Below are positions 46,217 to 61,463 of a stretch of DNA of 64,000 nt, piece by piece. Location of the stretch: positions 62,001-126,000 of the forward strand of contig NZ_JQKB01000002.1 in NCBI RefSeq assembly GCF_000745835.1. Direction: 5' to 3'. A model generated the notes under the pieces. It was not told where the DNA came from and made no database searches. It saw nothing but the letters and a program-made list of their open reading frames with translations. Position numbers and translations under genes: made by a program. The stretch's first letter is position 1. Each line of letters opens with the position of its first letter. This DNA is from Belnapia moabensis DSM 16746. Its GTDB lineage: Bacteria > Pseudomonadota > Alphaproteobacteria > Acetobacterales > Acetobacteraceae.

Positions 46217-47076
46217 GGCTCGCCATCGGCATCGCCACTCGCGGCCGCCCGGCGATCCTGGCCGAGGTGCTGCACGACCTTTCCCGCCAGACCCGCCCCG
46301 CCGACCGCATCCTCGTGTGCCACGCGACGCCGGACGACATCGGCGCACCGCTCCCCGGCATCGAATACTTCACCGCCCCGGCCGGCCTGCCACGCCAGCG
46401 CAACGCCATCATGGACCGCGCGGCGGATTGCGACGTCCTGCTCTTCCTCGACGACGACTTCCTCGCCGCCCCCGACTACGCCGCGGTGACCGAAGCTGTC
46501 TTCGCCGCCCGGCCGGAGGTGGTGGTGACGACGGGCACCGTCATCGCCGACGGCGCCAACGGTCCCGGCTTCCCGGTCGCCGAAGGCCGCCGCCTGCTCG
46601 CCGCCGACACCCCGCCCGCCGACAGCATGGCGGCGCACCCGCATTTCAACGGCTATGGGTGCAACATGGCCTTCCGCATGGCGGTGGTGCGCGCGCATGG
46701 CATCCGCGTCGACGAGGCGCTGCCGGCCTATGCCTGGTACGAGGATCTCGACGTGACCCGCCTGCTCGGGCGCCACGGGTCGATCCTGCGGCTCGAAGGC
46801 GCCCGCGGCGTGCATCTCGGCGCCAAGGTCGGGCGAAGCCCCGGCCTCCGCCTCGGCTACTCGCAGATCGCCAACCCCATCTACCTCGCCCGCAAGGGCA
46901 CCTATCCCTGGAACCGGGCGCTCCGCAGCATGGCGCGGCACTGGGCGATGAACCTCGCCCGCAGCCCCTTCCCCGAGCCCTGGGCCGATCGCTGGGGCCG
47001 CTTCCGCGGCAACATGCTGGCGCTCGCCGACCTGGCCCGCGGCCGGCTGCGCCCCGGCCGGATCGAGGAGCTGTAG
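46213..47076 (+). CDS. Glycosyltransferase, GT2 family
   Basis: The 287-aa GT-A enzyme has R-L-A-I-G-I-A-T-R-G-R-P-A-I-L at the start, the G-L-P-R-Q-R-N-A-I segment, the metal site L-F-L-D-D-D-F (about residues 76-82) and a C-terminal part with W-Y-E-D-L-D-V (about residues 176-182). It overlaps the preceding gene by 4 nt and precedes ydcF by 3 nt. With the three other transferases it would extend the lipid-linked sugar made by the ExoY-like enzyme. Confidence 0.87.
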   Translation: MRLAIGIATRGRPAILAEVLHDLSRQTRPADRILVCHATPDDIGAPLPGIEYFTAPAGLPRQRNAIMDRAADCDVLLFLDDDFLAAPDYAAVTEAVFAARPEVVVTTGTVIADGANGPGFPVAEGRRLLAADTPPADSMAAHPHFNGYGCNMAFRMAVVRAHGIRVDEALPAYAWYEDLDVTRLLGRHGSILRLEGARGVHLGAKVGRSPGLRLGYSQIANPIYLARKGTYPWNRALRSMARHWAMNLARSPFPEPWADRWGRFRGNMLALADLARGRLRPGRIEEL

Positions 47077-47079
47077 GCC

Positions 47080-47880
47080 GTGGAAGACGTGACCTACATC
47101 CTGTCGAAAGTGCTGTGGTTCCCGGCCCGGCCTGGCAATGCGGCGGTGCTGCTCATCGCCATCGGGCTCGCCGCATTATGGCGTGGCCGGCGCTGGGGCC
47201 GCTGGCCTGCGCTCGCCGGCCTCGGCTTCTTCGTCGCGCTGATGGCGCTGCCGCTGCACCAATGGGTCCAGGCCCCGCTCGAGGACCGCTTCGCCCGCCC
47301 GGCGCAGGAGCCGGCGCATATCGACGGCATCCTCGTGCTCGGCGGCGCCGTCGAGCAGAACCTGACCGAGGCGCGCGGCATCCCGGCCCTCAACGGCGCC
47401 GCGGAGCGGATGACGGAGCCCGTCGCCCTGCTGCGCCGCCACCCCGAGGCGCGGCTGGTCTTCACCGGCGGCCAGGGCTCCCTGGTGCATGGCGGCACGA
47501 CGGAGGCGGATGTCGCGGCGCGGCTCTGGCACGACCTCGGCGTGCCGGCCGACCGGCTGGTGCTGGAGCGCGAGGCGCGCAACACCTGGGAAAACGCCAC
47601 CCTCACCCTGAAGCTCCTGCAGCCGAAGCCCGGCGAGACCTGGCTGCTGATCACCTCGGCGAGCCACATGCCGCGATCGATGGGCGTCTTCCGCCGCGCC
47701 GGCTGGACCGGCATCATCCCCTGGCCGGTCAACTACCGCACCGGGCCGACGCTCGCCGCCCAGACCGACGCCTCCTTCCCCGACCGCCTGCGTGAGTTCG
47801 AATGGAGCGTCCGCGAATGGGTGGGGCTCGTCGCCTACCACCTCATGGGGCGGACGGTTGCCGTCTTCCCCGCGCCCTGA
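47080..47880 (+). CDS. YdcF/SanA-family (DUF218) membrane protein
   Basis: The 266-aa protein has two N-terminal hydrophobic segments (about 21-36 and 45-60) and a DUF218 domain with D-G-I-L-V-L-G-G-A-V-E, the FTGGQGSLVHGGTTEAD strand-loop and I-T-S-A-S-H-M-P-R-S. Family members (YdcF, ElyC, SanA) influence envelope polymer or lipid-carrier metabolism; the exact reaction is not established. GTG start 3 nt after the last glycosyltransferase makes it the end of the operon. Confidence 0.9.
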   Translation: MEDVTYILSKVLWFPARPGNAAVLLIAIGLAALWRGRRWGRWPALAGLGFFVALMALPLHQWVQAPLEDRFARPAQEPAHIDGILVLGGAVEQNLTEARGIPALNGAAERMTEPVALLRRHPEARLVFTGGQGSLVHGGTTEADVAARLWHDLGVPADRLVLEREARNTWENATLTLKLLQPKPGETWLLITSASHMPRSMGVFRRAGWTGIIPWPVNYRTGPTLAAQTDASFPDRLREFEWSVREWVGLVAYHLMGRTVAVFPAP

Positions 47881-47956
47881 GCCTTGCCGCTTGCCACGCT
47901 GGCGGGATCACGGTATAGGAATATTCGCTCAAACCCCGCCGCGGCAGGGCGTTCCT

Positions 47957-48022
47957 CCAAGGTACCTAAATAGTTGAAATCCTCAAATCGAGCAGCGGTT
48001 CCGAAGGATTTCAACACCTTGG
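47957..48022. repeat. Long interrupted inverted repeat downstream of the glycan operon
   Basis: The right arm is continuous: AGGATTTCAAC (48005-48015) followed by ACCTTGG (48016-48022). The left arm matches it in two pieces, CCAAGGT (47957-47963) and GTTGAAATCCT (47973-47983), separated by a 9-nt bulge. In all 18 bp pair without mismatch around a 21-nt loop. The region is AT-richer than its surroundings and has no gene. It could be a folded RNA, a terminator without T-tract, or the remnant of a mobile palindromic unit. Confidence 0.6.
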
Positions 48023-48087
48023 ATACCAGCTACTTTAATTCCTGAGCGCAACTGCCCGGTCTCCATCCGTGGCCTTGTGGGGAGGTC

Positions 48088-48255
48088 CTAGCGGCGCCAG
48101 GCATGGACCAGCAAAGGCATCTGCGCCGGCTCGGCCTGCACCTCGGAGCGGCCGATATCCTCGCGGAGTTGCGCATCCCGCGGCTCGGCCGCGGACTCCA
48201 GCCAGCGCTGCCGCATCATCCCCCAAAGCCCGGCAGTCGCCTCCGTCGCCGTCAT
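48088..48255 (-). CDS. Small unrecognised protein of 55 aa
   Basis: An ATG at 48255 preceded by GGGGAGCGAGGA opens a frame ending at 48088. The product starts MTATEATAGLWGMMRQRWLE and is followed by an acidic, then a hydrophobic C-terminus (PLLVHAWRR). Composition is less repetitive than typical antisense frames in this DNA and no other gene overlaps it, so it is a reasonable small gene. No family recognised. It is divergent from the ECF sigma operon. Confidence 0.42.
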   Translation of the reverse strand: MTATEATAGLWGMMRQRWLESAAEPRDAQLREDIGRSEVQAEPAQMPLLVHAWRR

Positions 48256-48561
48256 TCCTCGCTCCCCTTGGTCCCGTGCGATCGGCCCTTCATGCCGATG
48301 CAGGGTCCCGCGGCGATCCCGCTTCGTCGCGTCTGTCGCGGCGCCTGTCGCAACAGGCACGTTGCGTTGCTTGCCCGGACGGATTCCGATGCGCTAACCC
48401 CCGTCCATGAGGACTGAGCCTGAGCCGGTCGAGGGAGCACCGTGGGATGGCGGCTCGCGGGCCGTATCACCCGCCGAGACCCGATGCCCATGCTCCTCGC
48501 ACTCCCTTTCCCCTGGGCCCTCCCGCGCCTCGCGCCCGGCGCCAGGCCGGCGCCGCGCCCG
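48256..48561 (+). promoter_or_regulatory. Gene-free leader before the ECF sigma factor
   Basis: This stretch separates the small minus-strand gene from the sigma-factor gene. It holds one perfect short hairpin, GCCTGT-CGCA-ACAGGC (48343-48358). In-frame alternative starts of the sigma gene lie inside it (GTG 48442, ATG 48484). I found no obvious ECF-type promoter by eye. Confidence 0.3.
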
Positions 48562-49113
48562 ATGACCGACCCGGCATCGAGCGATGCGGCGCTGATGGCG
48601 CTCGCCGGCAACGGGGACCGCGCGGCGTTCAACCTGCTGGTCGGCCGGCATGGCGAGCGGGCGCTCCGCGTCGCGTTGCGCATCCTGGGCGATGCGGCGG
48701 AGGCCGAGGAGGTGGCGCAGGAGGCCTTCCTCCGCGCCTGGCAGGCGGCGGCCTCCTTCGACCCTGCCCGGGCGCGTTTCACCACTTGGCTGCATCGGAT
48801 CGTCGTCAACCTGGCGATCGACCGCACTCGCCGCCGGGCCGGAGCGCCTTCAACCGGGTTGGAAGCAGCCGCGGAACTGGCCGATGCCGCCCCCGGACCG
48901 GAGGCGGATGCCGCCGCCGCCGAGGCGCGGGCGGCGCTCGCCGTGGCGCTCGGGGCGCTGCCGCCGCGCCAGCGCGCCGCCATCGCGCTGGCCTATGAGG
49001 AGGAGTTGAGCGGGGCCGAGGCGGCGGCCGCGCTGGAGGTTTCGGAACGCGCGCTGGAAGGCCTGCTGCGCCGGGCCCGGCAATTCCTGCGCAGCCGATT
49101 GGAGGGCTCATGA
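48562..49113 (+). CDS. ECF (extracytoplasmic function) sigma factor
   Basis: The product of about 183 aa has sigma region 2 (A-A-F-N-L-L-V-G-R-H-G-E-R-A through A-E-E-V-A-Q-E-A-F-L-R-A-W and R-F-T-T-W-L-H-R-I-V-V-N-L-A-I-D) and region 4 (L-P-P-R-Q-R-A-A-I-A-L-A-Y-E-E-E-L-S-G-A-E-A-A-A). Start uncertain: ATG 48562 begins right at the family domain; GTG 48442, which has GAGGGAG upstream, and ATG 48484 would add a hydrophobic, Pro-rich extension not seen in the family. The next gene starts within its stop codon (ATGA). Confidence 0.88.
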   Translation: MTDPASSDAALMALAGNGDRAAFNLLVGRHGERALRVALRILGDAAEAEEVAQEAFLRAWQAAASFDPARARFTTWLHRIVVNLAIDRTRRRAGAPSTGLEAAAELADAAPGPEADAAAAEARAALAVALGALPPRQRAAIALAYEEELSGAEAAAALEVSERALEGLLRRARQFLRSRLEGS

Positions 49114-49535
49114 ATACCGCCCACTTCGCGGAATTGCTCGATCGCCGCGGCCCGGCCCTCGCCCGTTGGCCCGAGGCAGATCGCGCCGCAGCCGCCGGCC
49201 TGCTCGCCGCCTCCGCCGAGGCACGGGCGCGGCTGGAGGCGGCGCTCGCCCTCGATACCCGGCTGCGACGCGACCTGGCGCAACCCGACCCGGCCGCGGT
49301 CGCGCGGCTGCAGGCCGGCATCGCCCGGCAAATCGCCCGCGCGCCGCTGCCGGACCGGCCGGGGCCCCTGCCCCGGCTGCTGGCCCTGCTGCGCCCCGCG
49401 GCTCCGGCCGGCTGGGGTGCGCTGGCCGCGATGGCCTGCTGCGCCCTCTGGCTGGGCCTCGCGCCGCCGCGCGCCGCACCGGAGGATCCCTTCGGTCCCT
49501 TGCAAACCTTGCCCCTCGCGGGAGATGCCTTTTGA
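49110..49535 (+). CDS. Putative anti-sigma factor (single-span membrane protein)
   Basis: The 141-aa protein has a helical N-terminal part (LLDRRGPALARWPEADR) and one hydrophobic segment at about 99-116 near the C-terminus. It overlaps the sigma gene by 4 nt, and the position plus membrane span suit a regulator that holds the sigma factor at the membrane. No zinc-binding anti-sigma motif (HxxxCxxC) is present, so the assignment is by context. It is followed, with one base overlap, by a CpxP-like periplasmic protein. Confidence 0.65.
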   Translation: MNTAHFAELLDRRGPALARWPEADRAAAAGLLAASAEARARLEAALALDTRLRRDLAQPDPAAVARLQAGIARQIARAPLPDRPGPLPRLLALLRPAAPAGWGALAAMACCALWLGLAPPRAAPEDPFGPLQTLPLAGDAF

Positions 49536-49972
49536 TGCGCCGACCCTCCGGCCGGACTCTCATCACCGCGCTCTGCGGTGCCTCGCTGGTGCTGAACCTC
49601 GTCTTCGCCGGGCTGCTCTGGTGGCGGCCCACGCCGCCGCCGCGCGGAGGGCGCGGCTTCGACCGCATGGTGGCGCGGATCGAGGCCAACCTGCCGGAGC
49701 CGGACCGGCCGCTCTTCCAGGCCGTCCTGGCGGCCGAGCGCCCCCGCTATGCCGGAAGCCTCGCCGCCATGCGCGCCGCCAGCGCCGAGGTCGATGCCGT
49801 GATGCGCCGCGACCCCTACGACCCCGTCGCACTGCGCGATGCGCTCGCCGTCTGGGCCGAGCGGATGGTCGCCTTCAACCGCGACTTCGGCGAGACGCTG
49901 GCCGAGGCGCTGGCCGCCGTCTCGCCCGAGGGCCGCGCCCAGATCGCCGCTGCGCGCCGGCCGGGCGGCTGA
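49535..49972 (+). CDS. Membrane-anchored periplasmic sensor, CpxP/heavy-metal-resistance-like
   Basis: The 145-aa protein has one N-terminal hydrophobic anchor (about 9-29) and a helical periplasmic domain containing N-L-P-E-P-D-R-P-L-F-Q and A-L-A-A-V-S-P-E-G-R-A-Q-I near the end, as in the periplasmic CpxP/ZraP/heavy-metal-sensor group where the L-x-P-x-x-R repeat recurs. The metal-binding His/Cys of ZraP are absent. Start ATG overlaps the stop of the anti-sigma-like gene, and the RND outer-membrane gene starts 2 nt after its end. It probably senses envelope stress and acts with the sigma/anti-sigma pair (inference). Confidence 0.7.
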   Translation: MRRPSGRTLITALCGASLVLNLVFAGLLWWRPTPPPRGGRGFDRMVARIEANLPEPDRPLFQAVLAAERPRYAGSLAAMRAASAEVDAVMRRDPYDPVALRDALAVWAERMVAFNRDFGETLAEALAAVSPEGRAQIAAARRPGG

Positions 49973-49974
49973 GC

Positions 49975-51414
49975 ATGGCGCTTCCCTTCCTCCGCCGCGC
50001 GGCACCCGCCGCCGCGGCGCTGCTGCTCGGCGGCTGCTCCTCGCTCGGCGACTGGCTGACGGCACCCGGCACCTCCTCCGGCATCCCCCTGCCCGGGCGG
50101 ATGACGGCAGCCGATGCAACGCAGCCGGTGCAATGGCCCGACCCGTACTGGTGGCGCGGCTTCGGCTCGCCCGAGCTCGACGGGCTGATGGCCGAGGCGA
50201 TGGCGGCGAACAACGACATCGCCGGCGCCATCGCCCGCATCCGCCAGGCCGATGCGCAGATCCGCATCGCCGGCGCGACGCTGCTGCCGGCGATCGACCT
50301 GACGACGCGGGCGAACCGAACGCAGAGCGGCACCGCATCCTCCGCCTCCATCGCCGGCTTCGGCGGCGGCGGCAGCCGGGTGCGGGTCAGCTCCAACAAC
50401 CAGCTCAGCCTCGCGGCCAGCTACGAGATCGACTTCTGGGGCAAGAACCGTGGCCAGGTGGAGGCAGCGCAGCAATCCGCCTCGGCCACCCGCTTCGATG
50501 CGGGAACGGTGACGATCACCACGCAGTCCTCGGTGGCGAACACCTATTTCGCCATGCTGGCGGCACAGGAGACGCTGGCGATCCAGCGGCAGAACCTCGA
50601 CATCGCCCAGCGCGTCGCGCGGGTGATCCGCCAGCGCGTCGCGGTCGGCACGGCGACGGGGCTCGACCTCGCCCAGCAGGAGACGGTGGTGGCGCAGCAG
50701 CAGGCGCAGATCCCGCCGCTGGTGCAGCAGTTGGAGCAGAACCGCAACTCCCTCGGCACCCTCGTCGGCCGGCCGCCAGAGACGCTGAGGCTCGAGGGCG
50801 GCAGCTTCAACCGCCTCGACGTGCCGGCGGTGACGCCCGGCCTGCCGGCCGAGGTGCTGGCCCGGCGGCCCGACGTTCTCACCGCCGAGGCGACGCTGGC
50901 GGCGGCCAATGCCAATATCGTCGTCGCCCGGGCGCAGCTGCTGCCCTCCGTCACGCTGACCGGCTCGGGCGGCTTCGCCAGCCTCGCGCTCGAGAACCTG
51001 CTGCGGCCCGGCTCCGTCGTCTTCACCGTGGCGGCGGGGTTGGCCCAGCCCATCTTCCAGGGCGGGGCGCTGCACGGGCAGGTGGAACTGAACGAAGGCC
51101 GGGCGCAGGAGCTGCTGGCGCTCTACCGCGGCACCATCCTCGCCGCCCTGGTCGATGCCGAGAACGCCCTGGTCGCACTGCGCCAGACGACGGAGCAGGA
51201 AGCCCTGCAGGCCAATGCGGTGCGGATGGCCGAGCGCGCCTATGCGATCGGCGAGGCGCAGCTCCAGGCCGGGACCATCGACCTCGTCACGCTGCTCAAC
51301 ACCCAGCAGACGCTGTTCTCGGCGCGCACTTCCCTCGCCAATACCCGCCTCTCGCGGCTCCAGGCCGCTGTCGGGCTGTTCCGCGCGCTGGGCGGGGGGT
51401 GGAACGGCATCTGA
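49975..51414 (+). CDS. RND efflux outer-membrane lipoprotein (NodT/OprM family)
   Basis: The 479-aa TolC-type channel has a lipoprotein signal (MALPFLRRAAPAAAALLLGGC, Cys21) and the two repeated OEP halves: W-W-R-G-F-G-S-P-E-L-D-G-L, S-Y-E-I-D-F-W-G-K-N-R and later A-E-V-L-A-R-R-P-D-V-L-T-A-E, S-V-T-L-T-G-S-G-G-F. These are typical of CusC/OprM/NodT proteins. ATG at 49975 is 2 nt after the CpxP-like stop, making the sigma operon and the efflux operon continuous. It forms the exit duct for the pumps encoded next. Confidence 0.93.
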   Translation: MALPFLRRAAPAAAALLLGGCSSLGDWLTAPGTSSGIPLPGRMTAADATQPVQWPDPYWWRGFGSPELDGLMAEAMAANNDIAGAIARIRQADAQIRIAGATLLPAIDLTTRANRTQSGTASSASIAGFGGGGSRVRVSSNNQLSLAASYEIDFWGKNRGQVEAAQQSASATRFDAGTVTITTQSSVANTYFAMLAAQETLAIQRQNLDIAQRVARVIRQRVAVGTATGLDLAQQETVVAQQQAQIPPLVQQLEQNRNSLGTLVGRPPETLRLEGGSFNRLDVPAVTPGLPAEVLARRPDVLTAEATLAAANANIVVARAQLLPSVTLTGSGGFASLALENLLRPGSVVFTVAAGLAQPIFQGGALHGQVELNEGRAQELLALYRGTILAALVDAENALVALRQTTEQEALQANAVRMAERAYAIGEAQLQAGTIDLVTLLNTQQTLFSARTSLANTRLSRLQAAVGLFRALGGGWNGI

Positions 51415-51503
51415 GGTTGCAGTTCGTCACCCGAAGCCCCTCATGGGGAAGCCACTCTTCCGTCGTATCATCGAAATCCCTGCCGCGAGGTCCCTGAACC
51501 CAC

Positions 51504-52778
51504 ATGCGCCGCCCTCTCCTTCTCCTGCTCACCCTCGGGCTGATCGGCGGTGCCGGCGCGGGTGCCTGGTATTACTGGCAGCAGCCGGCCGAGGTGCAGG
51601 CCGGGCCGCGGCCCGGTGGCGGCCCGGGCCGGCCCGGCGGCCCGCGGGGCGGCGGGCCGGGCGTGCCGGTGACGGTCGCCGCGGCGCAGCGGCAGGACGT
51701 GCCGATCATGCTCGACGCCATCGGCACGGTGCAGGCCTACAACACCATCACCGTGCGGGCGCAGGTCGATGGCCAGCTCGTCGAAATCGCCTTCCAGGAA
51801 GGCCAGATGGTGAAGCAGGGCGACGTGCTGGCGCGCATCGACCCTCGCAGCTACCAGGCGGCGCTCGACCAGGCGGTTGCCAAGAAGGCGCAGGACGAGG
51901 CGCTGCTGGCCAATGCCCGGCTCGACCTGCAGCGCTACACGACGCTCGCCCGCAACGAGGGCGTCTCGCGCCAGCAACAGGACACGCAACGGGCGCAGGT
52001 CGCACAATACGAGGCGCTGGTCGCCGCCGACCAGGCCGCGATCGACAGCGCGCGGACGCAGCTCTCCTTCACCACCATCCGCTCGCCGATCAATGGCCGG
52101 GTCGGGCTGCGCCTGGTCGACCAGGGCAACCTGGTGCGCTCGGGGGATGCGACGGGCATCGTCACCGTCTCGCAGATGCAACCGATCGCCGTGACCTTCA
52201 CCCTGCCGCAGCAGGAGCTGGGGCGGGTGCTGGAGGCGCTGGAACGCGGCGCGGTGCCGGTGCAGGCGCTGCGCTCGGCCAGCGGCGGCACGCCGCAGAT
52301 CCAGGGCTCGCCGGCACCGTCCGGCGCGCATGGGCCGATCATGGGCGAGTTGCGGACGCTCGACAGCGCGGTCGATGCCTCGACCGGCACCATCAAGCTG
52401 AAGGCGGTCTTCGCCAATGAGGACATGCGGCTCTGGCCCGGCGCCTTCGTCAATGTCCGGCTGCGGATCGACACCGTGCCGGATGCGGTGACGGTGCCGC
52501 TGGTCGCGGTGCAGCGCGGGCCGGACGGTGCCTTCGCCTATGTGCTGAAGGGCGACCAGACGGTGGAGCAGCGCATGCTCCAGCTCGGCGTGCTGACGCC
52601 GGCCGAGGCGGTGGTGCGCCGCGGCGTCGAGGCCGGCGAGAAGGTCGTCACCTCCGGCGCGCTGCGGCTGAGCCCGGGCGCGACTGTCCTCGCCACCGAG
52701 GAGGCGGCGCCGGAGAATGCGCCCGGCCCCGGCCAGCGGCGCCTCCGCCCCCGGCAGGCGGCCGATGCGAGCCGCTGA
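51504..52778 (+). CDS. RND efflux periplasmic adaptor (membrane-fusion protein, MdtA-like)
   Basis: The 424-aa protein has an N-terminal membrane anchor (LLLLLTLGLIGGAGAGAWYYW), a Gly/Pro/Arg-rich linker (residues 34-55), a barrel-sandwich hybrid starting V-P-V-T-V-A-A-A-Q and V-R-A-Q-V-D-G-Q-L-V-E-I-A-F-Q-E-G-Q-M-V, a helical hairpin, and the T-I-R-S-P-I-N-G-R-V-G lipoyl return strand, the MdtA/AcrA plan. It links pump and channel. It lies 89 nt downstream of the outer-membrane gene and 3 nt before the first pump. Confidence 0.93.
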   Translation: MRRPLLLLLTLGLIGGAGAGAWYYWQQPAEVQAGPRPGGGPGRPGGPRGGGPGVPVTVAAAQRQDVPIMLDAIGTVQAYNTITVRAQVDGQLVEIAFQEGQMVKQGDVLARIDPRSYQAALDQAVAKKAQDEALLANARLDLQRYTTLARNEGVSRQQQDTQRAQVAQYEALVAADQAAIDSARTQLSFTTIRSPINGRVGLRLVDQGNLVRSGDATGIVTVSQMQPIAVTFTLPQQELGRVLEALERGAVPVQALRSASGGTPQIQGSPAPSGAHGPIMGELRTLDSAVDASTGTIKLKAVFANEDMRLWPGAFVNVRLRIDTVPDAVTVPLVAVQRGPDGAFAYVLKGDQTVEQRMLQLGVLTPAEAVVRRGVEAGEKVVTSGALRLSPGATVLATEEAAPENAPGPGQRRLRPRQAADASR

Positions 52779-52781
52779 GCG

Positions 52782-55700
52782 GTGAACATCTCCGCCCCCT
52801 TCATCGCACGGCCGATCGCCACCGTCCTGCTGGCGATCGCCGTGCTGCTCTGCGGCGGCTTCGGTTATCTGCGCCTACCGGTCTCGGCGCTGCCCGAGGT
52901 CGACTTCCCGACCATCGAGGTGACGACGAGCCTGCCCGGCGCCTCGCCGGAGACCGTGGCGGTGCTGGTCACTGCCTCGCTCGAGCGCCAGCTCGCGCTG
53001 ATCGCCGGCCTCACCGACATCGTCTCGACCAGCGGGCCGGGGACGAGCCGCATCACCATGCAGTTCACCCTCGGCCGCAACATCGACGATGCGGCGCAGG
53101 ACGTGCAGGCGGCGATCAACTCGGCCCGCGGCACGCTGCCCGCCAACCTGCCCTATCCGCCGACCTATGCGAAGGTGAACCCGGCCGACCCGCCGATCAT
53201 CACCCTCGCGCTGACCTCCGACACGCTGCCCATGCAGCGTCTCGCCGATGCGGCCGATACGCTGCTCGGCCAGCGGCTGAGCCAGGTGAGCGGCGTCGGC
53301 CGCGTGCTGGTGCAGGGCAACATGCGCCCGGCCGTGCGCATCCAGGCGGACCCGGTGCGGCTGGCGGCCTATGGCCTGTCGCTGGAGGACGTGCGGACCG
53401 CGGTCGCCGCCGGCAACGTCAACACGCCGAAGGGCAGCGTCGACGGGCCGCGCCAGGCCAGCACCGTGATGGCGAACGACCAGATCGACCGGCCGGAAGC
53501 CTTCGCCAGCCTCATCATCGCCTGGCGCAACGGCGCCCCGGTGCGGCTGCGCGATGTCGGCACGGCAGTGCAGGACCTCGAGAACACGTTGACCGGCGCC
53601 TGGTACGATGGCGGCCCCGCCGTGCTGATCGACGTGCAGCGCCAGCCGGGGGCGAATATCGTCCAGACGGTCGCCGATATCCGCGAGCAGCTGCCGATGC
53701 TGGAGCGGGCGCTGCCGCAGGGGGCACGGCTGGCGGTCGTCGCCGACCGGACGGGGACGATCAAGGCCTCAGTGCACGACGTGCAGTTCACCTTGGCGCT
53801 CGCGGTGGTGCTGGTGATCGCGGTGATCTTCGTCTTCCTGCGCAGCCTGCGCGCCACCTTCATCCCAGGCGTAGCCCTGCCGCTCTCCATCATCGGTACC
53901 TTCGGGGTGATGGCGCTCTGCGGCTTCTCGCTCGACAACCTGTCGCTGATGGCGCTGACCATCGCCACGGGCTTTGTCGTGGACGATGCCATCGTCATGA
54001 TCGAGAACATCGTCCGCCTGATCGAGGAGGGGAAGCGGCCGCTGGAGGCCGCCTATGAGGGCGCGCGGCAGATCGGCTTCACCGTCGTCTCGCTGACCGT
54101 CTCGCTGATCGCCGTCTTCATCCCGCTGCTCTTCATGCCGGGCGTCGTCGGGCGGCTGTTCCAGGAATTCGCGCTGACGCTGACCATTGCCGTGCTCGTG
54201 TCGATGGTGGTCTCCCTCACCCTGACGCCGATGATGTGCGGCTGGCTGCTGAAGCCGCATGCCGAGGCGCAGCCGGGCCGCCTGTCCCGTGCTACCGAAC
54301 GCGTGCTCGATGCCTGCCGCGACGCCTATGGCCGCAGCCTGCACCGGGCGCTCCGCCATGAGGGGCTGATGCTGATCCTGGCGACGCTGACGGTCGCCGG
54401 CACCGTCTGGCTCTACGTCACTATGCCGAAGGGCTTCCTGCCACAGCAGGACACCGGGTTGCTGGTCGCCAATGTCGAGGCGCCCGACGACGTCTCCTTC
54501 AGCCGCATGTCCGCGCTCCAGCAGGAGGTGGCGGCGCTGATCCGGGAGGACCCGGACGTGACCGGCGTCGCCTCCGTCGTCGGCGCCGGCGTCGTCAATG
54601 CAGCGCAGAATACAGGGCGGATCAGCATCGTGCTGCGACCGCGCGAGGAGCGCGAGGCGGATGCCAAGGCGATCATCGCCCGGCTGCAGCCAAGGCTCGA
54701 CGCGCTGCCGCAGGTGGTGGTGCATCTCCAGGCGGTGCAGGACATCCAGATCGGCTCCCGGCCTGGCAGCACCGCCTTCCAGTACACGCTGATGGACCCG
54801 GATGCGGCGGAGCTCGGCCGCTGGGCGCCGCTGCTGGAGCGGAAGCTCGCCAGCCTGCCGATACTGCGCGACATCGCCTCCGACCAGCGCGACGGCGGCG
54901 TGCGCGTCACGGTCGATGTGGATCGGGACAAGGCCGGGCGGCTTGGCGTCACCATGCAGGCGGTGGACGACGTTCTCTACGACGCCTTCGGCCAGCGCCA
55001 GATCAGCACGATCTACGCCCAGAACAATCAGTACCGCGTGGTGCTGGAGGCCGATCCTGCCATCCGCGATGACCCGGACAAGATCGGCCTGCTGCGCATA
55101 CCGGCAACCGCCGGGCAGCAGACCACGGCGCAGGGGACGCCCGCGACCAGCACAGGCACGGTGCAGGTGCCGCTGTCGGAGCTGGCGCGGATCGGCCGCG
55201 CGGCGGGGCCGCTGACGGTGACGAAGCAGGGGCAGTTCCCGGCCGTGACCATCGGCTTCGACCTCGCACCGGGCGCCTCGCTCGGCGAGGCCATCGCGGC
55301 GATCCGCGCGGCCGAGGCCGAGATCGGCATGCCGGACACCATCGTCGGCCGCTTCGCCGGCGATGCGGCGGAGTTCCAGCGGTCGCTCGCCGGCGAGCCC
55401 TGGCTGATCCTCGCCGCCATCGTCGTCATCTATATCGTGCTCGGCGTGCTCTACGAGAGCGTGATCCACCCGATCACCATCCTCTCGACGCTGCCCTCGG
55501 CCGGCATCGGGGCGCTGCTGGCGCTCAGGCTTTGCGGGCTCGACCTCTCCGTGGTGGGGCTGATCGGCATCGTTTTGCTGATGGGCATCGTCAAGAAGAA
55601 CGCGATCATGATGATCGACTTCGCACTCGAGGCGCAGCGCGACCATGGCAAGGCGCCGCGCGAAGCGATCATCGAGGCCTCGATCCTCCGCTTCCGCCCG

Positions 55701-55934
55701 ATCATGATGACGACGCTGGCGGCGCTGCTCGGCGCCCTGCCGCTGGTGCTGGAGAGCGGCACGGGCTCGGAGCTGCGGCTGCCGCTCGGCGTCTCGGTGA
55801 TCGGCGGGCTGCTGCTGAGCCAGGTCATCACCCTCTACACCACGCCAGTGATCTACCTGGCGATGGAGACGCTGCGCGACCACGCCGTGCGGCTTGTGCG
55901 ACCGCGCCCGCGCGTGCCGCAGCCGGCGGAATAG
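52782..55934 (+). CDS. RND-family drug efflux pump, MdtB-like
   Basis: The 1050-aa inner-membrane pump (GTG start) begins I-S-A-P-F-I-A-R-P-I-A-T-V-L-L. Proton-relay residues are present: the Asp pair in GFVVDDAIVMIENI (TM4) and the Lys in KKNAIMMIDFA (TM10). The length and the S-F-S/S-R-M-S-A-L-Q-Q-E-V periplasmic region are those of MdtB/MdtC rather than AcrB. It uses the proton gradient to export amphiphilic compounds. The second, similar pump follows after 4 nt. Confidence 0.93.
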   Translation: MNISAPFIARPIATVLLAIAVLLCGGFGYLRLPVSALPEVDFPTIEVTTSLPGASPETVAVLVTASLERQLALIAGLTDIVSTSGPGTSRITMQFTLGRNIDDAAQDVQAAINSARGTLPANLPYPPTYAKVNPADPPIITLALTSDTLPMQRLADAADTLLGQRLSQVSGVGRVLVQGNMRPAVRIQADPVRLAAYGLSLEDVRTAVAAGNVNTPKGSVDGPRQASTVMANDQIDRPEAFASLIIAWRNGAPVRLRDVGTAVQDLENTLTGAWYDGGPAVLIDVQRQPGANIVQTVADIREQLPMLERALPQGARLAVVADRTGTIKASVHDVQFTLALAVVLVIAVIFVFLRSLRATFIPGVALPLSIIGTFGVMALCGFSLDNLSLMALTIATGFVVDDAIVMIENIVRLIEEGKRPLEAAYEGARQIGFTVVSLTVSLIAVFIPLLFMPGVVGRLFQEFALTLTIAVLVSMVVSLTLTPMMCGWLLKPHAEAQPGRLSRATERVLDACRDAYGRSLHRALRHEGLMLILATLTVAGTVWLYVTMPKGFLPQQDTGLLVANVEAPDDVSFSRMSALQQEVAALIREDPDVTGVASVVGAGVVNAAQNTGRISIVLRPREEREADAKAIIARLQPRLDALPQVVVHLQAVQDIQIGSRPGSTAFQYTLMDPDAAELGRWAPLLERKLASLPILRDIASDQRDGGVRVTVDVDRDKAGRLGVTMQAVDDVLYDAFGQRQISTIYAQNNQYRVVLEADPAIRDDPDKIGLLRIPATAGQQTTAQGTPATSTGTVQVPLSELARIGRAAGPLTVTKQGQFPAVTIGFDLAPGASLGEAIAAIRAAEAEIGMPDTIVGRFAGDAAEFQRSLAGEPWLILAAIVVIYIVLGVLYESVIHPITILSTLPSAGIGALLALRLCGLDLSVVGLIGIVLLMGIVKKNAIMMIDFALEAQRDHGKAPREAIIEASILRFRPIMMTTLAALLGALPLVLESGTGSELRLPLGVSVIGGLLLSQVITLYTTPVIYLAMETLRDHAVRLVRPRPRVPQPAE

Positions 55935-55938
55935 GCAC

Positions 55939-58900
55939 GTGTCGATCTCCGAGCCCTTCATCCACCGGCCGATCGCGACAGCATTGCTCGCCATCGGCAT
56001 CGCGCTGGCGGGCATCGTCTCCTATTTCGCGCTCCCCGTCGCGCCGCTGCCGAGCGTCGACCTGCCGACCATCGTCATCGGCGCCGGGCAGCCGGGGGCG
56101 GACCCGGCGACCATGGCCTCCTCCGTCGCGGCGCCGCTGGAGCGGAGGCTCGGCGCCATCGCGGGCGTGACGGAGATGACCTCCACCTCCTCGCTCGGCG
56201 CCACCTCCATCGTCGTGCAATTCGACCTCTCCCGCAGCGTCGAGGGCGCGGCGCGGGACGTGCAGGCGGCGATCAACGCGGCGGGCAGCGACCTGCCGGC
56301 GGGACTCGCCATCCCGCCCTATTTCCGCAAGGCCAATCCGGGCGACGCGCCGGTGCTCATCATGTCGCTCGGTGCCGATACGGTGACGCCGGGCCAGGTC
56401 TACGACGCGGCCGACAGCCTGGTCGCGCCGCGCATCGCCCAGGTGCCGGGCGTCGCGCAGGTGCTGATCGCGGGCGCCGAGCAGCCGGCGGTGCGCGTCA
56501 CGGTCGATCCCGCGGCGGCCAGGGCGGCCAGGGTGGGGCTCGAGGACATACGCCGGGCGATCGCCAACAACAACGTCACCCAGGCGACGGGGCTGATCGA
56601 CGGCTCGCAGCAATCCGCCGCCATCGTCGTCAACGACCGGCTGAACACGCCGGAGGAGTTTGCCGGGATCACGCTGAAATCGGCGAACGGCGCCCTCGTC
56701 CGCATCTCCTCCGTCGCCCGCGTCGCGCTCGACGTGCGGGACAGGCGGCAGGGCGGCTCGGTCGATGGCCGGCCGGCGGTGCTGATGATCATCTTCAAGC
56801 AGCCGGACGCCAATGTCATTGAGGTGGTGGACGGCATCCAGCGCCTGCTGCCGGAGGTGGAGCGCTGGCTGCCGGGCGGCGTGCGCATCACCACCATCCG
56901 CGACCGGTCGGAGACGATCCGCGCCAGCGTGCATGAGGTGCAGCTGACGCTGCTGATCTCGATCGCCCTCGTCATCCTGGTCGTGGCGCTCTTCCTCGGG
57001 CGGACCTCGGCCGTCGCGGCGGCGGGCGCTTCGGTGCCGCTCTCGCTGCTCGGCACGCTGGTGGTGATGTGGCTGGTCGGCTACTCGCTCGACAACCTCT
57101 CGCTCATGGCGCTCACCATCTCGGTCGGCTTCGTGGTGGACGACGCCATCGTCATGATCGAGAACATGGCGCGGCTGATGGAGCGCGGCATGAAGCCGCT
57201 GGAGGCGGCGCTCGTGGGCGCGCGGCAGATCGGCTTCACCGTCGTCTCGATCACCGTCTCGCTCATCGCCGTTTTCATCCCGCTGCTCTTCATGGGCGGC
57301 ATCGTAGGGCGGCTGTTCCGGGAATTCTCGGCGACGCTCGCCATCGCCGTCGCCATCTCGGGCGTCATCTCCCTCACCCTGACGCCGATGATGGCAGCGT
57401 GGCTGGCGCGCAGCGGGCCGCACCGGCCGGGGCTCGTGATCCGCCTCGTCGATGCGGGGATGGAGCGGATGACGCGTGGCTATCTCTGGTCGCTGCGGCA
57501 TGTGCTGCGCTTCCGGCGGATCATGCTGGTGTTCACCCTCGCGCTGATCGGGCTGACGGTCTGGCTTTATGTCATTGTCCCCAAGGGCTTCTTTCCCGAC
57601 CAGGATACCGGCCTCATCATCGGCACGACGCGGGCGCCGCCGGATACCTCCTTCCAGACGATGCAGGTGCTGCAGGAACGGGTGGTGCAGGTGCTGATGC
57701 GCGACCCGGCTGTGGCCAGCATCGCCTCCCAGGTCGGCGGCGGCGGGGGCAATTCGTCGGGCAACCAGGGGCGCATCTTCCTCAGCCTGAAGCCGCTGGC
57801 GGAGCGGGACAATGTCTCTGCGGCCCAGGTGATCGACCGGCTGCGGAGGCCGCTGAACGGCATCCCCGGCATGCAAACCTTCCTCCGCGCCGTGCAGGAC
57901 ATCAGCCTTGGCGGGCGGGCGGGGAACGCGCAGTTCCAGTTCGTGCTGCTCTCGCCGGACCTGGAAGGGCTGGAGGCCTGGTCGGAGGTGCTGGTGCAGA
58001 GGCTGCGCACCGTCCCGGGCATCACCGACGTCTCCTCCGACCAGCAGCGCGCCGGGCTCGTCACGCGGCTGGAGATCGACCGGGATGCGGCGGCACGGCT
58101 CGGCGTCAGCGTCTCGGCCATTGCCTCGGCGCTGAACAGCGGCTTCGCGCAACGCCAGGTCTCGATCATCTATCGCGCCCGCAACCAGTACCGCGTGGTG
58201 CTGGAGCTGGAGCCGGGGCTACAGCAATTCCCCGAGCAGGTGGACGATGTCTATGTGCCGGGCGCAGGCGGAACGCAGGTGCCGCTGTCGAGCCTCGTGC
58301 GGTTGAGCCGGACGACGGCACCACTGGCGGTGACGCATCAGGGGCAGTATCCGGCGGCCACGATCACCTTCAACCTTGGCGAAGGGATGTCGATCGGCCA
58401 GGCGGCGGAAGCGGTGCAGCGGGCGGCGCAGGAAGCCGGGCTGCCGGATGGGATGCGGACGGAATTCGCCGGCAATGCCAAGGCCTTCCAGTCCTTCGCC
58501 CGCGACCAGCCGCTGCTGATCCTGGCGGCGCTGTTGACCATCTATATCGTGCTCGGCGTGCTCTACGAGCACCTGCTGCACCCGATCACCATCCTCTCGA
58601 CCCTGCCGACGGCGGGCATCGGCGCGTTGCTGGCGCTGCTGGTGACGGACACGCCCTTCACCGTCATCGCCCTGATCGGCGTGATCCTGCTGATGGGCAT
58701 CGTGAAGAAGAACGCCATCATGATGGTGGACTTCGCCCTGGAGCATGAGCGGAGCGAAGGGATCGGCGGGATGGAGGCGATCATGGCGGCCTGCCGGGAA
58801 CGCTTCCGGCCGATCCTGATGACGACGCTGGCCGCCGTCTTCGGCGCGGTGCCGCTGGCCATGGCCACGGGGGCCGGGTCGGAGCTGCGGCACCCGCTCG

Positions 58901-59034
58901 GCATCACCATCATCGGCGGGCTGCTGCTGTCGCAGCTGCTGACGCTCTATACCACGCCGGTGGTCTACCTGGCGCTCGACGGGGTGGGGCGGCGGAAGCG
59001 GCAAAGCGTGGCGGTGGCGGCGCCGGCGGAGTAG
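55939..59034 (+). CDS. RND-family drug efflux pump, MdtC-like
   Basis: The 1031-aa pump starts with GTG (S-I-S-E-P-F-I-H-R-P-I-A-T-A-L-L), 4 nt after the first pump. The TM4 Asp pair (SVGFVVDDAIVMIEN) and TM10 Lys (IVKKNAIMMVDFALE) are intact. In MdtBC systems two different pump subunits build one heterotrimer (known of the family), and the tandem arrangement here fits that. It ends the RND operon; folE follows 54 nt later with its own ribosome-binding site. Confidence 0.93.
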   Translation: MSISEPFIHRPIATALLAIGIALAGIVSYFALPVAPLPSVDLPTIVIGAGQPGADPATMASSVAAPLERRLGAIAGVTEMTSTSSLGATSIVVQFDLSRSVEGAARDVQAAINAAGSDLPAGLAIPPYFRKANPGDAPVLIMSLGADTVTPGQVYDAADSLVAPRIAQVPGVAQVLIAGAEQPAVRVTVDPAAARAARVGLEDIRRAIANNNVTQATGLIDGSQQSAAIVVNDRLNTPEEFAGITLKSANGALVRISSVARVALDVRDRRQGGSVDGRPAVLMIIFKQPDANVIEVVDGIQRLLPEVERWLPGGVRITTIRDRSETIRASVHEVQLTLLISIALVILVVALFLGRTSAVAAAGASVPLSLLGTLVVMWLVGYSLDNLSLMALTISVGFVVDDAIVMIENMARLMERGMKPLEAALVGARQIGFTVVSITVSLIAVFIPLLFMGGIVGRLFREFSATLAIAVAISGVISLTLTPMMAAWLARSGPHRPGLVIRLVDAGMERMTRGYLWSLRHVLRFRRIMLVFTLALIGLTVWLYVIVPKGFFPDQDTGLIIGTTRAPPDTSFQTMQVLQERVVQVLMRDPAVASIASQVGGGGGNSSGNQGRIFLSLKPLAERDNVSAAQVIDRLRRPLNGIPGMQTFLRAVQDISLGGRAGNAQFQFVLLSPDLEGLEAWSEVLVQRLRTVPGITDVSSDQQRAGLVTRLEIDRDAAARLGVSVSAIASALNSGFAQRQVSIIYRARNQYRVVLELEPGLQQFPEQVDDVYVPGAGGTQVPLSSLVRLSRTTAPLAVTHQGQYPAATITFNLGEGMSIGQAAEAVQRAAQEAGLPDGMRTEFAGNAKAFQSFARDQPLLILAALLTIYIVLGVLYEHLLHPITILSTLPTAGIGALLALLVTDTPFTVIALIGVILLMGIVKKNAIMMVDFALEHERSEGIGGMEAIMAACRERFRPILMTTLAAVFGAVPLAMATGAGSELRHPLGITIIGGLLLSQLLTLYTTPVVYLALDGVGRRKRQSVAVAAPAE

Positions 59035-59088
59035 AGAGGGCGCTTCGGTGCCGGGCGCGGCCCGCATCGCAACCGCCGGAGGTACACC

Positions 59089-59676
59089 ATGTCCATCCCC
59101 CCCGAGCGCCCAAGCCGGGCCGAGGCCGAGGATGCCGTTCGCACCCTGATCCGCTGGGCCTGCGACGACCCGACGCGGGAGGGGCTGCTCGACACCCCTG
59201 CCCGGGTCACCCGCGCCTATGAGGAGCTCTTCTCCGGCTACCAGGTCGACCCGGTGGCGCTGCTGGAGCGGACCTTCGACGAGGTCGAGGGATATGACGA
59301 GATTGTCCTGCTCAAGAACATCCGCCTTGAGAGCTATTGCGAGCACCACATGGTGCCCATCATCGGCCATTGCCATGTCGCCTACCTTCCGGACCGCCGC
59401 GTCGTCGGCATCAGCAAGCTGGCACGGGTGGTGGAGGCCTATGGCAAGCGGCTTCAGATTCAGGAGAAGCTGACGGCGCAGATCGCCAACACCATCGACA
59501 AGGTGCTGCAGCCGCGGGGCGTCGCCGTCATCATCGAGAGCGCGCACCAGTGCATGACGACGCGCGGGGTGCACCAGACGGGCGTGACGATGGTTACCAG
59601 CCGGATGCTGGGCGCCTTCCGCGACAATCCCGATACCCGTCGCGAATTGCTGTCCCTGATCCAGTCCCCCTCCTGA
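59089..59676 (+). CDS. folE: GTP cyclohydrolase I
   Basis: The 195-aa enzyme converts GTP to 7,8-dihydroneopterin triphosphate, the entry to folate and other pterins. Zinc ligands are Cys84 and His87 in SYCEHHMVP and Cys155 in HQCMTTRGV; the catalytic H-C-H-V-A-Y-L-P segment follows. Size is normal for bacterial FolE. CCGGAGGT precedes the ATG. It is downstream of the efflux genes on the same strand, with no visible terminator in between, and 66 nt upstream of the HWE kinase gene. Confidence 0.97.
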
Positions 59677-59742
59677 GCCGAGGCGCTGGCGCTGGGCGTG
59701 TCGGCGACCTAGGCTCATGCGCCCTTGCGAAGGAAACCAGGA

Positions 59743-60717
59743 ATGCCCGAAGGCGATGCCCGGTTCCGCCTTCTCGCCGACAATGCGCCGGTCATGGTCT
59801 GGCGCGCGGACCCAAGCAAGGCCTGCGATTTTGTCAACAGGCCTTGGCTCGATTTCACCGGCCGGACGGTGGAGCAGGAGCTTGGCTTCGGCTGGGCCGA
59901 AGGCGTTCATCCCGACGATTTCGACCGCTGCCTCACGATCTACACGGAGGCTTTCGACGCACGGCGCCCGTTCAGCATGCAATACCGCCTGCGCCGGCAT
60001 GACGGGGCCTGGCGCTGGCTGCTGGACAATGGCAGGCCCTACGAGATTGCCGGCCGCTTTGCCGGTTATTTCGGATCCTGCATCGACGTCACCGAGATGA
60101 AGCAGGCGCTCGACCAGCGGGACGAGCTGGTGGCGGAGCTGACCCATCGCATCAAGAACACCCTCGCCGTGGTGGCCGCCATGGCGGAGCAGACGCGGCG
60201 CAATTCCCGCAGCGCCGAGGAATTCCACCCGAATTTCCTCGGCCGGCTGCATGCGCTGTCGCGCGCCCATGACGCCCTGTTCCGTCAGGGCTGGACCGGA
60301 ACCACCCTCGAGCTGGTCGCACGGGAGGCGTTGGCCCCGCATATCGAGCCGGGGCGGATCAGCATCGCCGGGCCCGATGTCACGTTGCCGGCCAACGGGG
60401 CCGTGGCGCTCGGCATCGCCTTGCATGAGCTGGCGACCAATGCGGTGAAGCATGGCGCCCTCTCCACCGATGCGGGGCGGGTCAGGCTCTTTTGGGGCGA
60501 GGCGGAGACGGATGGCGAGGGCCAGGCCTGGCACCTGCTCCGCTGGGAGGAGAGCGGCGGGCCGCCGGTGCAGGGCCGCCCCGGCCGCCGCGGCATGGGG
60601 ACCCGGCTGCTGGAGGGCGGCCTCGCCGGACAGATCCGCGGGGCGGTGACGCTGGACTTCGCCCCCGGCGGGGTGCGTTGCACCATGCGGCTGCCGGCCA
60701 CTCAGGGCTTGGCGTAG
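59743..60717 (+). CDS. PAS-domain HWE-family sensor histidine kinase
   Basis: The 324-aa soluble kinase has a PAS domain (residues about 6-118: F-R-L-L-A-D-N-A-P-V-M-V-W, then P-D-D-F-D-R and Y-R-L-R-R-H-D-G-A-W-R-W-L-L) and an HWE catalytic part: phospho-acceptor His135 in LTHRIKNTLAVV, His228 and Asn233 in LHELATNAVKHGAL, and the W-E-E motif at 268-270 that gives the family its name. No membrane segment, so it senses a cytoplasmic signal, such as light or redox via a PAS cofactor. ATG chosen after GAAGGAAACCAGG. It converges with the DUF169 gene, overlapping by 16 nt. Confidence 0.92.
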   Translation: MPEGDARFRLLADNAPVMVWRADPSKACDFVNRPWLDFTGRTVEQELGFGWAEGVHPDDFDRCLTIYTEAFDARRPFSMQYRLRRHDGAWRWLLDNGRPYEIAGRFAGYFGSCIDVTEMKQALDQRDELVAELTHRIKNTLAVVAAMAEQTRRNSRSAEEFHPNFLGRLHALSRAHDALFRQGWTGTTLELVAREALAPHIEPGRISIAGPDVTLPANGAVALGIALHELATNAVKHGALSTDAGRVRLFWGEAETDGEGQAWHLLRWEESGGPPVQGRPGRRGMGTRLLEGGLAGQIRGAVTLDFAPGGVRCTMRLPATQGLA

Positions 60718-61463
60718 CTGACGCCCATCCCGGCCGAAGGGTCGTTCTGGATACCGTAGGGCGGGATTGGGTAGCGGAGACCGTTCTTCGCCAGGGCCTT
60801 CATGCCATCGACGGCGCTTCGCAGGTCGGCCGGCTTGAGTGCCATCAGCATCTCCTCGTCGGGGACGCCGCCATAGCGGCGCTCGGCATAGCAGGGGAGA
60901 GAGAGGCTCGGCTCGCCGGTCTTCAACGCACGGCCCCAGCTATCGGCGCAGGCGCTCTCACCGGCAACGCTCCATTCAAACTTCCGGTAGTTGCGATACT
61001 GCAAGCCGTTGATGAGGATGATCATCTGGCCGGGCGTCGCATAGACCAGGGCGATGTCGGGATCGGGGATGCGGCCGGACTCGAGGGGGCTGACCGCCAT
61101 CGCCTGGTAGCGGCCGTGGGGGACGACATCGAGGGCCTCCTGCCGGGCCTGGGCGTCCTCCTGGGTGCCGTGCCAGATGCCGACATATTTCTCGCCGCGG
61201 CGCCATTCCTCGTCCTGTGGGCCGAGGCCGATGACGGCGCGGCATTGCGAGCCGACCAGGTCCTCGCCGGTGATGCCGACAGTCCAGCCGAGGCGGGAGG
61301 CCATGCTGACGATCTGGTCGGTGGCGTGGACCGTCTTCGGGCGGCGGATGCGGGGGATGGCCTCCATCTCGGCGACGGTCTCGTACATCTTCATGCCGAT
61401 GACGGTGGTTCTTAGGCGCAGCAGCGCATTAAGCTCGGCGACAAGGGCTGGCAGGTCCAGCAT
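60702..61463 (-). CDS. DUF169-family protein
   Basis: The 253-aa protein shows the DUF169 pattern: M-L-D-L-P-A-L-V-A-E-L-N-A-L-L-R at the start, a C-R-A-V-I-G-L-G middle segment, and the Cys-containing end S-A-C-A-D-S-W-G-R-A-L then P-S-L-S-L-P-C-Y-A-E-R-R-Y. Conserved cysteines hint at metal or cofactor binding, but the family has no known function. ATG 61463 has GGGGAG at good distance; the earlier in-frame opening was discarded. It is convergent with the HWE kinase. Confidence 0.85.
   Translation of the reverse strand: MLDLPALVAELNALLRLRTTVIGMKMYETVAEMEAIPRIRRPKTVHATDQIVSMASRLGWTVGITGEDLVGSQCRAVIGLGPQDEEWRRGEKYVGIWHGTQEDAQARQEALDVVPHGRYQAMAVSPLESGRIPDPDIALVYATPGQMIILINGLQYRNYRKFEWSVAGESACADSWGRALKTGEPSLSLPCYAERRYGGVPDEEMLMALKPADLRSAVDGMKALAKNGLRYPIPPYGIQNDPSAGMGVSYAKP

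Follow-up and report, generated by a model that had tools for sequence, protein, structure and literature searches.

A 64,000-nucleotide stretch of Belnapia moabensis DSM 16746 (contig NZ_JQKB01000002.1, positions 62,001 to 126,000; in the following, the window) carries genes for an extracytoplasmic function (ECF) sigma factor, a candidate anti-sigma factor and a candidate periplasmic sensor (together, the trio) immediately in front of a resistance-nodulation-division (RND) efflux operon, and the question raised by this locus is whether sensing and efflux form one regulatory unit and what such a unit would serve. The explanation preferred for the whole, to which a probability of about 0.7 is given, is that of a CnrYXH-type transmembrane switch turned to multidrug-type efflux, which would control the operon in which it lies and, probably, another pump as well. 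The gene layout and the promoter elements rest on sequence comparison; sigma binding, induction and substrate are predicted only. The following features were assigned:

48442..48469, + strand: P1, predicted autoregulatory promoter, GTGGGAT-N14-CGTATCA
48484..49113, + strand: ECF sigma factor, 209 aa from the ATG at 48484 (a start at 48562 is probably internal)
49110..49535, + strand: single-pass anti-sigma candidate of no known family, 141 aa, the role being assigned from position and build
49535..49972, + strand: candidate membrane-anchored periplasmic sensor, PF13801, CnrX-like model, 145 aa
49975..51414, + strand: outer-membrane channel, NodT family (TIGR01845)
51443..51470, + strand: P2, possible internal promoter, ATGGGGA-N14-CGTATCA, 33 nt 5' of the adaptor ATG
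51504..52778, + strand: periplasmic adaptor, MdtA/MuxA-like (PRK11556, TIGR01730)
52782..55934, + strand: RND permease 1, MdtB/MuxB-like, GTG start (PF00873, PRK10503)
55939..59034, + strand: RND permease 2, MdtC-like, GTG start (PF00873, PRK10614)

The sigma and anti-sigma frames overlap by 4 nt at ATGA (sigma end 49113, anti-sigma start 49110), the anti-sigma and sensor frames overlap by 1 nt at TGATG (both at 49535), and the sensor end (49972) is separated from the channel start (49975) by a 2-nt gap. The junction between channel and adaptor is a gap of 89 nt that holds the promoter-like element P2. When the junctions in the window were re-read, the coordinates, the gene content, the overlaps of 1–4 nt and the 2-nt gap of an earlier annotation made from the letters alone (the sequence-only reading) were found to be exact. 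For the sigma gene, its frame end and junctions were likewise exact, and its start at 48562 is probably internal. The match to the NCBIfam model PRK05602 begins only at model position 29, and this family therefore has an N-terminal extension; a start codon adding about 20–45 residues ahead of the sigma core is present in many relatives and absent from some (for example L048, locus numbers being given with L); and the next ATG after the end of P1 (48469) is that at 48484. On these three grounds the start was placed at 48484, which would leave a leader of only a few bases.

The distribution of the module was determined from searches with the sensor. Of 150 genomes from the family, 21 have it (single-sequence search), as do 45 among 299 from the order (profile search); with this profile, it was found in 110 of the 385 alphaproteobacterial genomes that were sampled. 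In two genomes of the same genus its identity was 96% and 75%. Fifty-seven stretches including the window were mapped, and L156, L157 (not a sensor locus) and L158 were dropped for want of matches, leaving 54 loci. In 32 of these the trio is followed by channel, adaptor and/or RND genes, in the same order across genera; some of the 32 are truncated where a contig stops, and in L046 about 900 nt separate the sensor from the adaptor and RND genes, without a channel match. The search for the same gene order in related genomes that the sequence-only reading had proposed was thus carried out, and adjacency recurs rather than never being found. It is not universal: in 22 of the 54 loci the trio stands without a following RND pump. 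In one of these 22 (L043) the trio is followed by genes for a MacB/FtsX-like permease, an ABC ATPase closest to DevA, an HlyD-type adaptor and an outer-membrane channel, and the P1 site ahead of its sigma gene scores 13. Fifteen pump operons without a sensor match were also fetched; after removal of four that were cut by contig ends, 11 related pump operons remained, in which there were no sigma, anti-sigma or sensor matches.

The distribution of the pump label over a sigma tree of 76 rows requires five changes, and well supported branches force at least three of them, so pump linkage was gained or lost several times. One supported group (96/91) is formed by 28 of the 33 pump-linked rows together with L043. 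Outside the family, 20 of 118 listed sensor places were fetched, drawn from those that ranked higher. A sigma gene of this profile adjoins the sensor gene in all 20, with a recognisable anti-sigma gene in 15; RND or channel genes lie directly beside the trio in four (L274, L275, L278 and L291), and L286 has a weak adaptor match beside it.

Upstream of the sigma genes, a consensus GTGGGTT-N14-CGTATCA was found. P1 reaches a score of at least 12 of 14 in 25 of the 26 pump-linked loci whose upstream DNA could be read, and 1040 shuffles never exceed 11, a test that is partly circular because the consensus was derived from the loci on which it is scored and these loci are related; for this reason the controls matter. 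With spacers of 12, 13, 15 and 16 nt, the numbers of loci were 0, 1, 0 and 0 of 26. Among the loci of the other group, 8 of 23 reach 12 (this group includes L046, with a score of 11, despite the adaptor and RND genes behind its sensor). Exactly one site scoring at least 12 on either strand is present in 34 of the 57 mapped stretches and two are present in none; 33 of these 34 single sites stand before the sigma gene, that of L143 lying further upstream. Genome scans allowing at most one mismatch returned 25 sites in 25 genomes (reversed-pattern control: 1), of which 20 precede a sigma gene of this family, one (L171) precedes an adaptor-RND operon and four are unassigned. In the 11 pump operons without the trio (145,774 bases scanned), no site scoring at least 12 on either strand and no relaxed coding-strand match was detected. 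Within the 64-kb window the relaxed pattern has exactly two matches, P1 and P2, a number reached by one of 100 shuffles. The motif does not carry over to 20 class-level loci, in which the best scores were 8–11.

The co-regulation of sensing and efflux genes by way of a predicted autoregulatory ECF-type promoter element is thus well supported at the level of sequence, and the proposal of the sequence-only reading that sensing and efflux form a conserved unit with positive feedback gains support from the linkage in 32 of 54 loci and from P1 in 25 of 26. Two further sites, C22 (spacer 16) and C3 (inside a frame that looks carboxylase-like by eye), were taken as chance. At about 1501–2015 of L193, a one-mismatch site lies ahead of the gene for a small, secreted-looking protein without a Pfam match.

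P2 was assessed separately. Its blocks are kept in three of four Belnapia-genus genomes with a diverged spacer. In a second genus (L035, L037 and L125), ATGGGA-type versions with scores of 9 or 10 occupy the same gap; L034 has a score of 11 at a site overlapping the channel end, and the other listed loci score 7–9 or 10. The score of P2 does not in itself exceed chance, since 4 sites with three mismatches or fewer were found where 1.56 were expected; the claim is carried by position and conservation. An ATGGG-type pattern run on four genomes gave 8 sites, of which three are P2 and five are not (control: 0). The pump core may therefore have its own sigma promoter at P2, a candidate element whose effect would be to extend sigma control, not to contradict it. 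Five terminator-like sites were found in the 13 kb that were scanned, none of them between sensor and adaptor, and a sigma-70 consensus scan of the same 13 kb found no promoter where 0.8 were expected; both kinds of scan are weak evidence. The single transcript that had been suggested for sensing and efflux agrees with the lack of a terminator-like site between sensor and channel in these data, and may be too simple in view of P2 before the adaptor. An Rfam scan of 44000–61000 gave nothing above threshold.

A wider predicted regulon was sought with the pattern GTGGG-N16-CGTATM, which gave nine sites in four Belnapia-genus genomes (P1 in 4/4, an unlinked adaptor-RND operon in 4/4, and one other) against seven for the reversed control; raw counts are thus not above control, and only orthologous positions are telling. 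The ten core letters GTGGG-N16-CGTAT precede the unlinked operon in 8 of 8 genomes from three genera, these eight having been chosen beforehand. Four 14-kb loci around this operon contain adaptor and permease genes and no channel, sigma, anti-sigma or sensor match. An exporter gene of the major facilitator superfamily has a near-perfect site in two of four genus orthologs and, with only these two carrying the element, was not counted as a core regulon member.

The type of pump was determined by model comparison. The channel scores 350.3 bits with TIGR01845 (cut-off 210). The adaptor scores 351 bits with PRK11556 (MdtA; cut-off 391) and 256.9 with TIGR01730 (cut-off 94.9), the first permease 1068 bits with PF00873 and 1263.7 with PRK10503 (cut-off 1584), and the second permease 1007.7 bits with PF00873 and 1207.4 with PRK10614 (cut-off 1774). 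The best NCBIfam models are hence those of MdtA, MdtB and MdtC, yet all three proteins remain under the equivalog cut-offs. With the metal-pump model TIGR00914 (CusA/CzcA; cut-off 701) the permeases score 382 and 357 bits, whereas the MdtB/C models exceed 1000. Both permeases contain VDDAI and KKN motifs, which we take to be proton-relay residues of drug-type RND pumps. As judged from models and motifs, the pump pair is multidrug-type and not of the heavy-metal efflux RND class.

All family and structure searches with the sigma factor were performed with the form starting at 48562. It matches PF04542 (4.8e-22) and PF08281 (4.7e-12) in Pfam, and with PRK05602 this shorter form, which lacks the probable N-terminal extension, gives 203.5 bits, under the cut-off of 208. 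CnrH is among its best solved relatives (structure 4cxf, E 1.3e-20). A match of 91% over 169 residues is present in an uncultured 'Craurococcus' assembly, and relatives of sigma and anti-sigma factor occur in the betaproteobacteria Xenophilus and Variovorax (L060, L061 and L063).

The sensor matches PF13801 (9.5e-18, 65 bits, above the gathering cut-off of 29.2). Its structural model (pLDDT 84.6, pTM 0.64) consists of a membrane helix at residues 6–30 and four further helices, and in a Foldseek search with this model ranks 1–15 were all NccX/CnrX at weak E values of 0.013–0.13, with Spy from rank 16 and CpxP at ranks 22 and 25. The label 'CpxP-like' of the sequence-only reading is accordingly imprecise, and the LTXXQ/Spy Pfam family was not matched at E <= 0.1. 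A comparison of the sensor profile with the sequences of solved structures gave no meaningful match, and CnrX was not among the 15 matches listed; the likeness to CnrX is apparent only by fold search and not by sequence search. The sensor has no histidine, and its sole cysteine (residue 14) lies in the membrane helix. Across 20 aligned relatives there is no conserved His/Cys column, the maximum in any column being four. CnrX binds metal through H42, H46 and H119, and PDB titles of mutants suggest E63 and M123 as further ligands; the CnrX-type histidine ligands are absent from the window sensor. The claim that the sensor lacks metal ligands of the His/Cys kind is thereby borne out, and a non-metal signal, as proposed with it, is plausible in view of the missing histidine and the drug-type pump.

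The model of the anti-sigma candidate shows four helices within residues 3–77 and a membrane helix at about 101–117. It has one histidine, and both of its cysteines (110 and 111) lie inside the predicted membrane helix, so there is no zinc motif, as had been stated from the sequence. Matches to the anti-sigma profile lie between sigma and sensor in mapped trio loci. In Belnapia sp. F-4-1 (L032/L052) the two halves of the anti-sigma gene match in different frames, reflecting either a sequencing error or a broken gene; the latter might free the sigma factor.

From these components the following mechanism is proposed. At rest, the single-pass anti-sigma factor and the CnrX-like sensor would hold the ECF sigma factor at the inner membrane, as family knowledge suggests. 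A change in the sensor, brought about by a signal in the periplasm (probably some noxious organic compound or its damage, and not a metal ion), would free the sigma factor. It would then read promoters of the GTGGGTT-N14-CGTATCA type: P1 would give positive feedback through all seven genes, P2 probably extra output for the pump core, and a related promoter would probably serve the unlinked adaptor-RND operon. This second pump, without a channel gene nearby, could, as a guess, share the channel of the present operon.

Several results weigh against this explanation, besides the partial circularity of the shuffle test and the raw site counts of the wider pattern. One pump-linked locus, L038, is low at P1 (score 10). 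The -10 element of the unlinked operon is CGTATA and not CGTATC in seven of eight genomes, and another sigma factor could read that promoter. P2 has three mismatches to the consensus, and its -10 element is missing in B. mucosa. For the sensor, no fold match reaches E < 0.001, and the VIA-align comparison with CnrX (Z 8.6, rmsd 3.6, 105 residues) is only slightly better than those with unrelated helical proteins, which extend to Z 8.0. The anti-sigma candidate has no Pfam or NCBIfam match, and its fold search returned four matches, the best relevant one being a weak match to RslA (E 6.2), an assignment that was set aside at this E value. This protein lacks some 45 residues at its N terminus in B. 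mucosa and in two Siccirubricoccus loci (two of these three short forms were aligned), and only a small cytosolic part, of CnrY-like size, is kept.

Three other explanations were weighed against that of a switch turned to multidrug-type efflux. If regulators and pump were mere neighbours, the pump being under a housekeeping or separate regulator, the 22 trio loci without an RND pump behind them and the 11 related pump operons without the trio would be accounted for; against this stand the 2-nt gap in the window with the same order across genera, the position of P2 right before the adaptor, the related element at the unlinked pump operon, and the clustering of pump linkage on the sigma tree with at least five changes, and such a coincidence is regarded as improbable. 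Scarcely different, and if anything a shade lower, is the standing of a genuine Cnr/Ncc-like operon for metal resistance, in which the sensor would use non-histidine ligands and the pumps would export metal. The 'heavy-metal resistance' family PF13801, the nearest folds NccX/CnrX and a module design shared with cnr all point to it, but a sensor without histidine and with its only cysteine in the membrane helix, at most four His/Cys per column in 20 relatives, and TIGR00914 scores far below cut-off beside MdtB/C scores above 1000 do not agree with it.

Somewhat more weight, although still that of an unlikely alternative, is given to a switch that senses general envelope damage in the manner of CpxP/Spy or RpoE, the pump being one output of many. 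Spy and CpxP are indeed among the fold matches of the sensor, and the trio occurs without an RND pump in other lineages; the strict-pattern genome scans, in which degenerate targets would be missed, gave few further sites, however, the recurrent extra target is an exporter, and the LTXXQ/Spy family is not matched. The multidrug-type switch is thus retained as the preferred explanation. A broader version of it, to which slightly less than even odds are given, regards a CnrYXH-type switch freed from metal sensing as a front end that can be exchanged between tripartite exporters. Within one clade of Acetobacteraceae it would drive a heteromeric MdtBC-like pump from two promoters and an unlinked RND pump that borrows the channel; in L043 the same promoter and regulators would serve an ABC-type exporter with adaptor and channel, and in other alphaproteobacteria RND pumps were attached independently. 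If the preferred explanation is true, a transmembrane sigma switch has moved from metal to multidrug efflux by new sensor chemistry and a new output pump with its logic kept, and a precise promoter (GTGGGTT-N14-CGTATCA) and a small predicted exporter regulon become available for a widespread, little-studied module.

Around the operon, the following was observed. The folE gene (GTP cyclohydrolase I, 59089–59676) begins 54 nt past the second permease gene on the same strand; loci L032, L033 and L124 of the genus Belnapia likewise have it behind their pump genes, with no match in the other mapped loci, and it looks like a neighbour rather than a module member. A frame resembling a PAS/HWE-type histidine kinase by eye lies at 59725–60717. 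Upstream of the operon (45338–47880) there are two frames that look glycosyltransferase-like by eye and a DUF218 gene, the second of these frames and DUF218 also being upstream in L032–L037. In the gap 5' of the regulators, an imperfect inverted repeat lies at 47961–48027; its arms of 23 nt are 78% complementary and stand 21 nt apart.

Among known systems, MdtABC/MuxABC share with the pump described here an adaptor and two unlike RND permeases, and MdtA, MdtB and MdtC are its best models; this pump differs in its scores under the equivalog cut-offs and in having its own NodT channel. Enterobacterial MdtABC is run by the two-component system BaeSR and not by a sigma switch. On the regulatory side, likeness to Cnr/Ncc lies in the nearest, though weakly matched, sensor folds (CnrX/NccX, the latter known here from a PDB title) and in CnrH as one of the best solved sigma relatives. 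The nccYXH operon is cnr-like.

In Azospirillum brasilense Sp7 the genes annotated as RpoE8, a hypothetical protein and a periplasmic heavy metal sensor have the same three-gene order; no pump is named in the passages on these genes, which are reported to be upregulated by another sigma factor, RpoE6 (PMC12826043). RpoE1 and RpoE4 of Sinorhizobium meliloti (ECF26), which govern the sulfite response (PMC3511301), are likewise alphaproteobacterial ECF sigma factors with an adjacent anti-sigma factor, and RpoE1 activates its own operon; the target promoters listed for RpoE1, in difference to P1, carry GGGAATA-like boxes (PMC6180224). ECF26 membership of the window sigma factor was dropped, as the promoters listed for that group differ from P1. 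A sigma-run multidrug RND operon was not found in the literature among the matches listed, which does not show that none exists; PMC8552747 and PMC10141476 were considered as leads and found not relevant.

The closest comparison is with cnrYXH-cnrCBAT of Cupriavidus metallidurans. Nickel or cobalt frees CnrH from the CnrYX membrane complex, and CnrH transcribes cnrYXH and cnrCBAT (PMC4803752), cnrYp and cnrCp both being CnrH-dependent (PMC9045368); CnrY is a class II anti-sigma factor, two helices of which wrap CnrH (PMC7406223). As in the window, where anti-sigma factor and sensor are candidates, an ECF sigma factor, a membrane anti-sigma factor and a periplasmic sensor are encoded together directly before an RND operon, and the sigma-dependent promoters before regulators and efflux genes there have predicted counterparts here in P1 and the weaker P2 (PMC4803752, PMC9045368). 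The description of the arrangement as unusual thus holds only in part, as the same design is known from cnr. What differs is the order (sigma, anti-sigma, sensor here; anti-sigma, sensor, sigma in Cnr), the sensor without histidine and the multidrug-type pump pair; in addition, P2 lies behind the channel gene, and the regulon may include another pump, encoded elsewhere in the genome. Since metal ligands, metal pump and gene order fail to correspond, the window operon is filed as a variant of the Cnr kind and not as a member.

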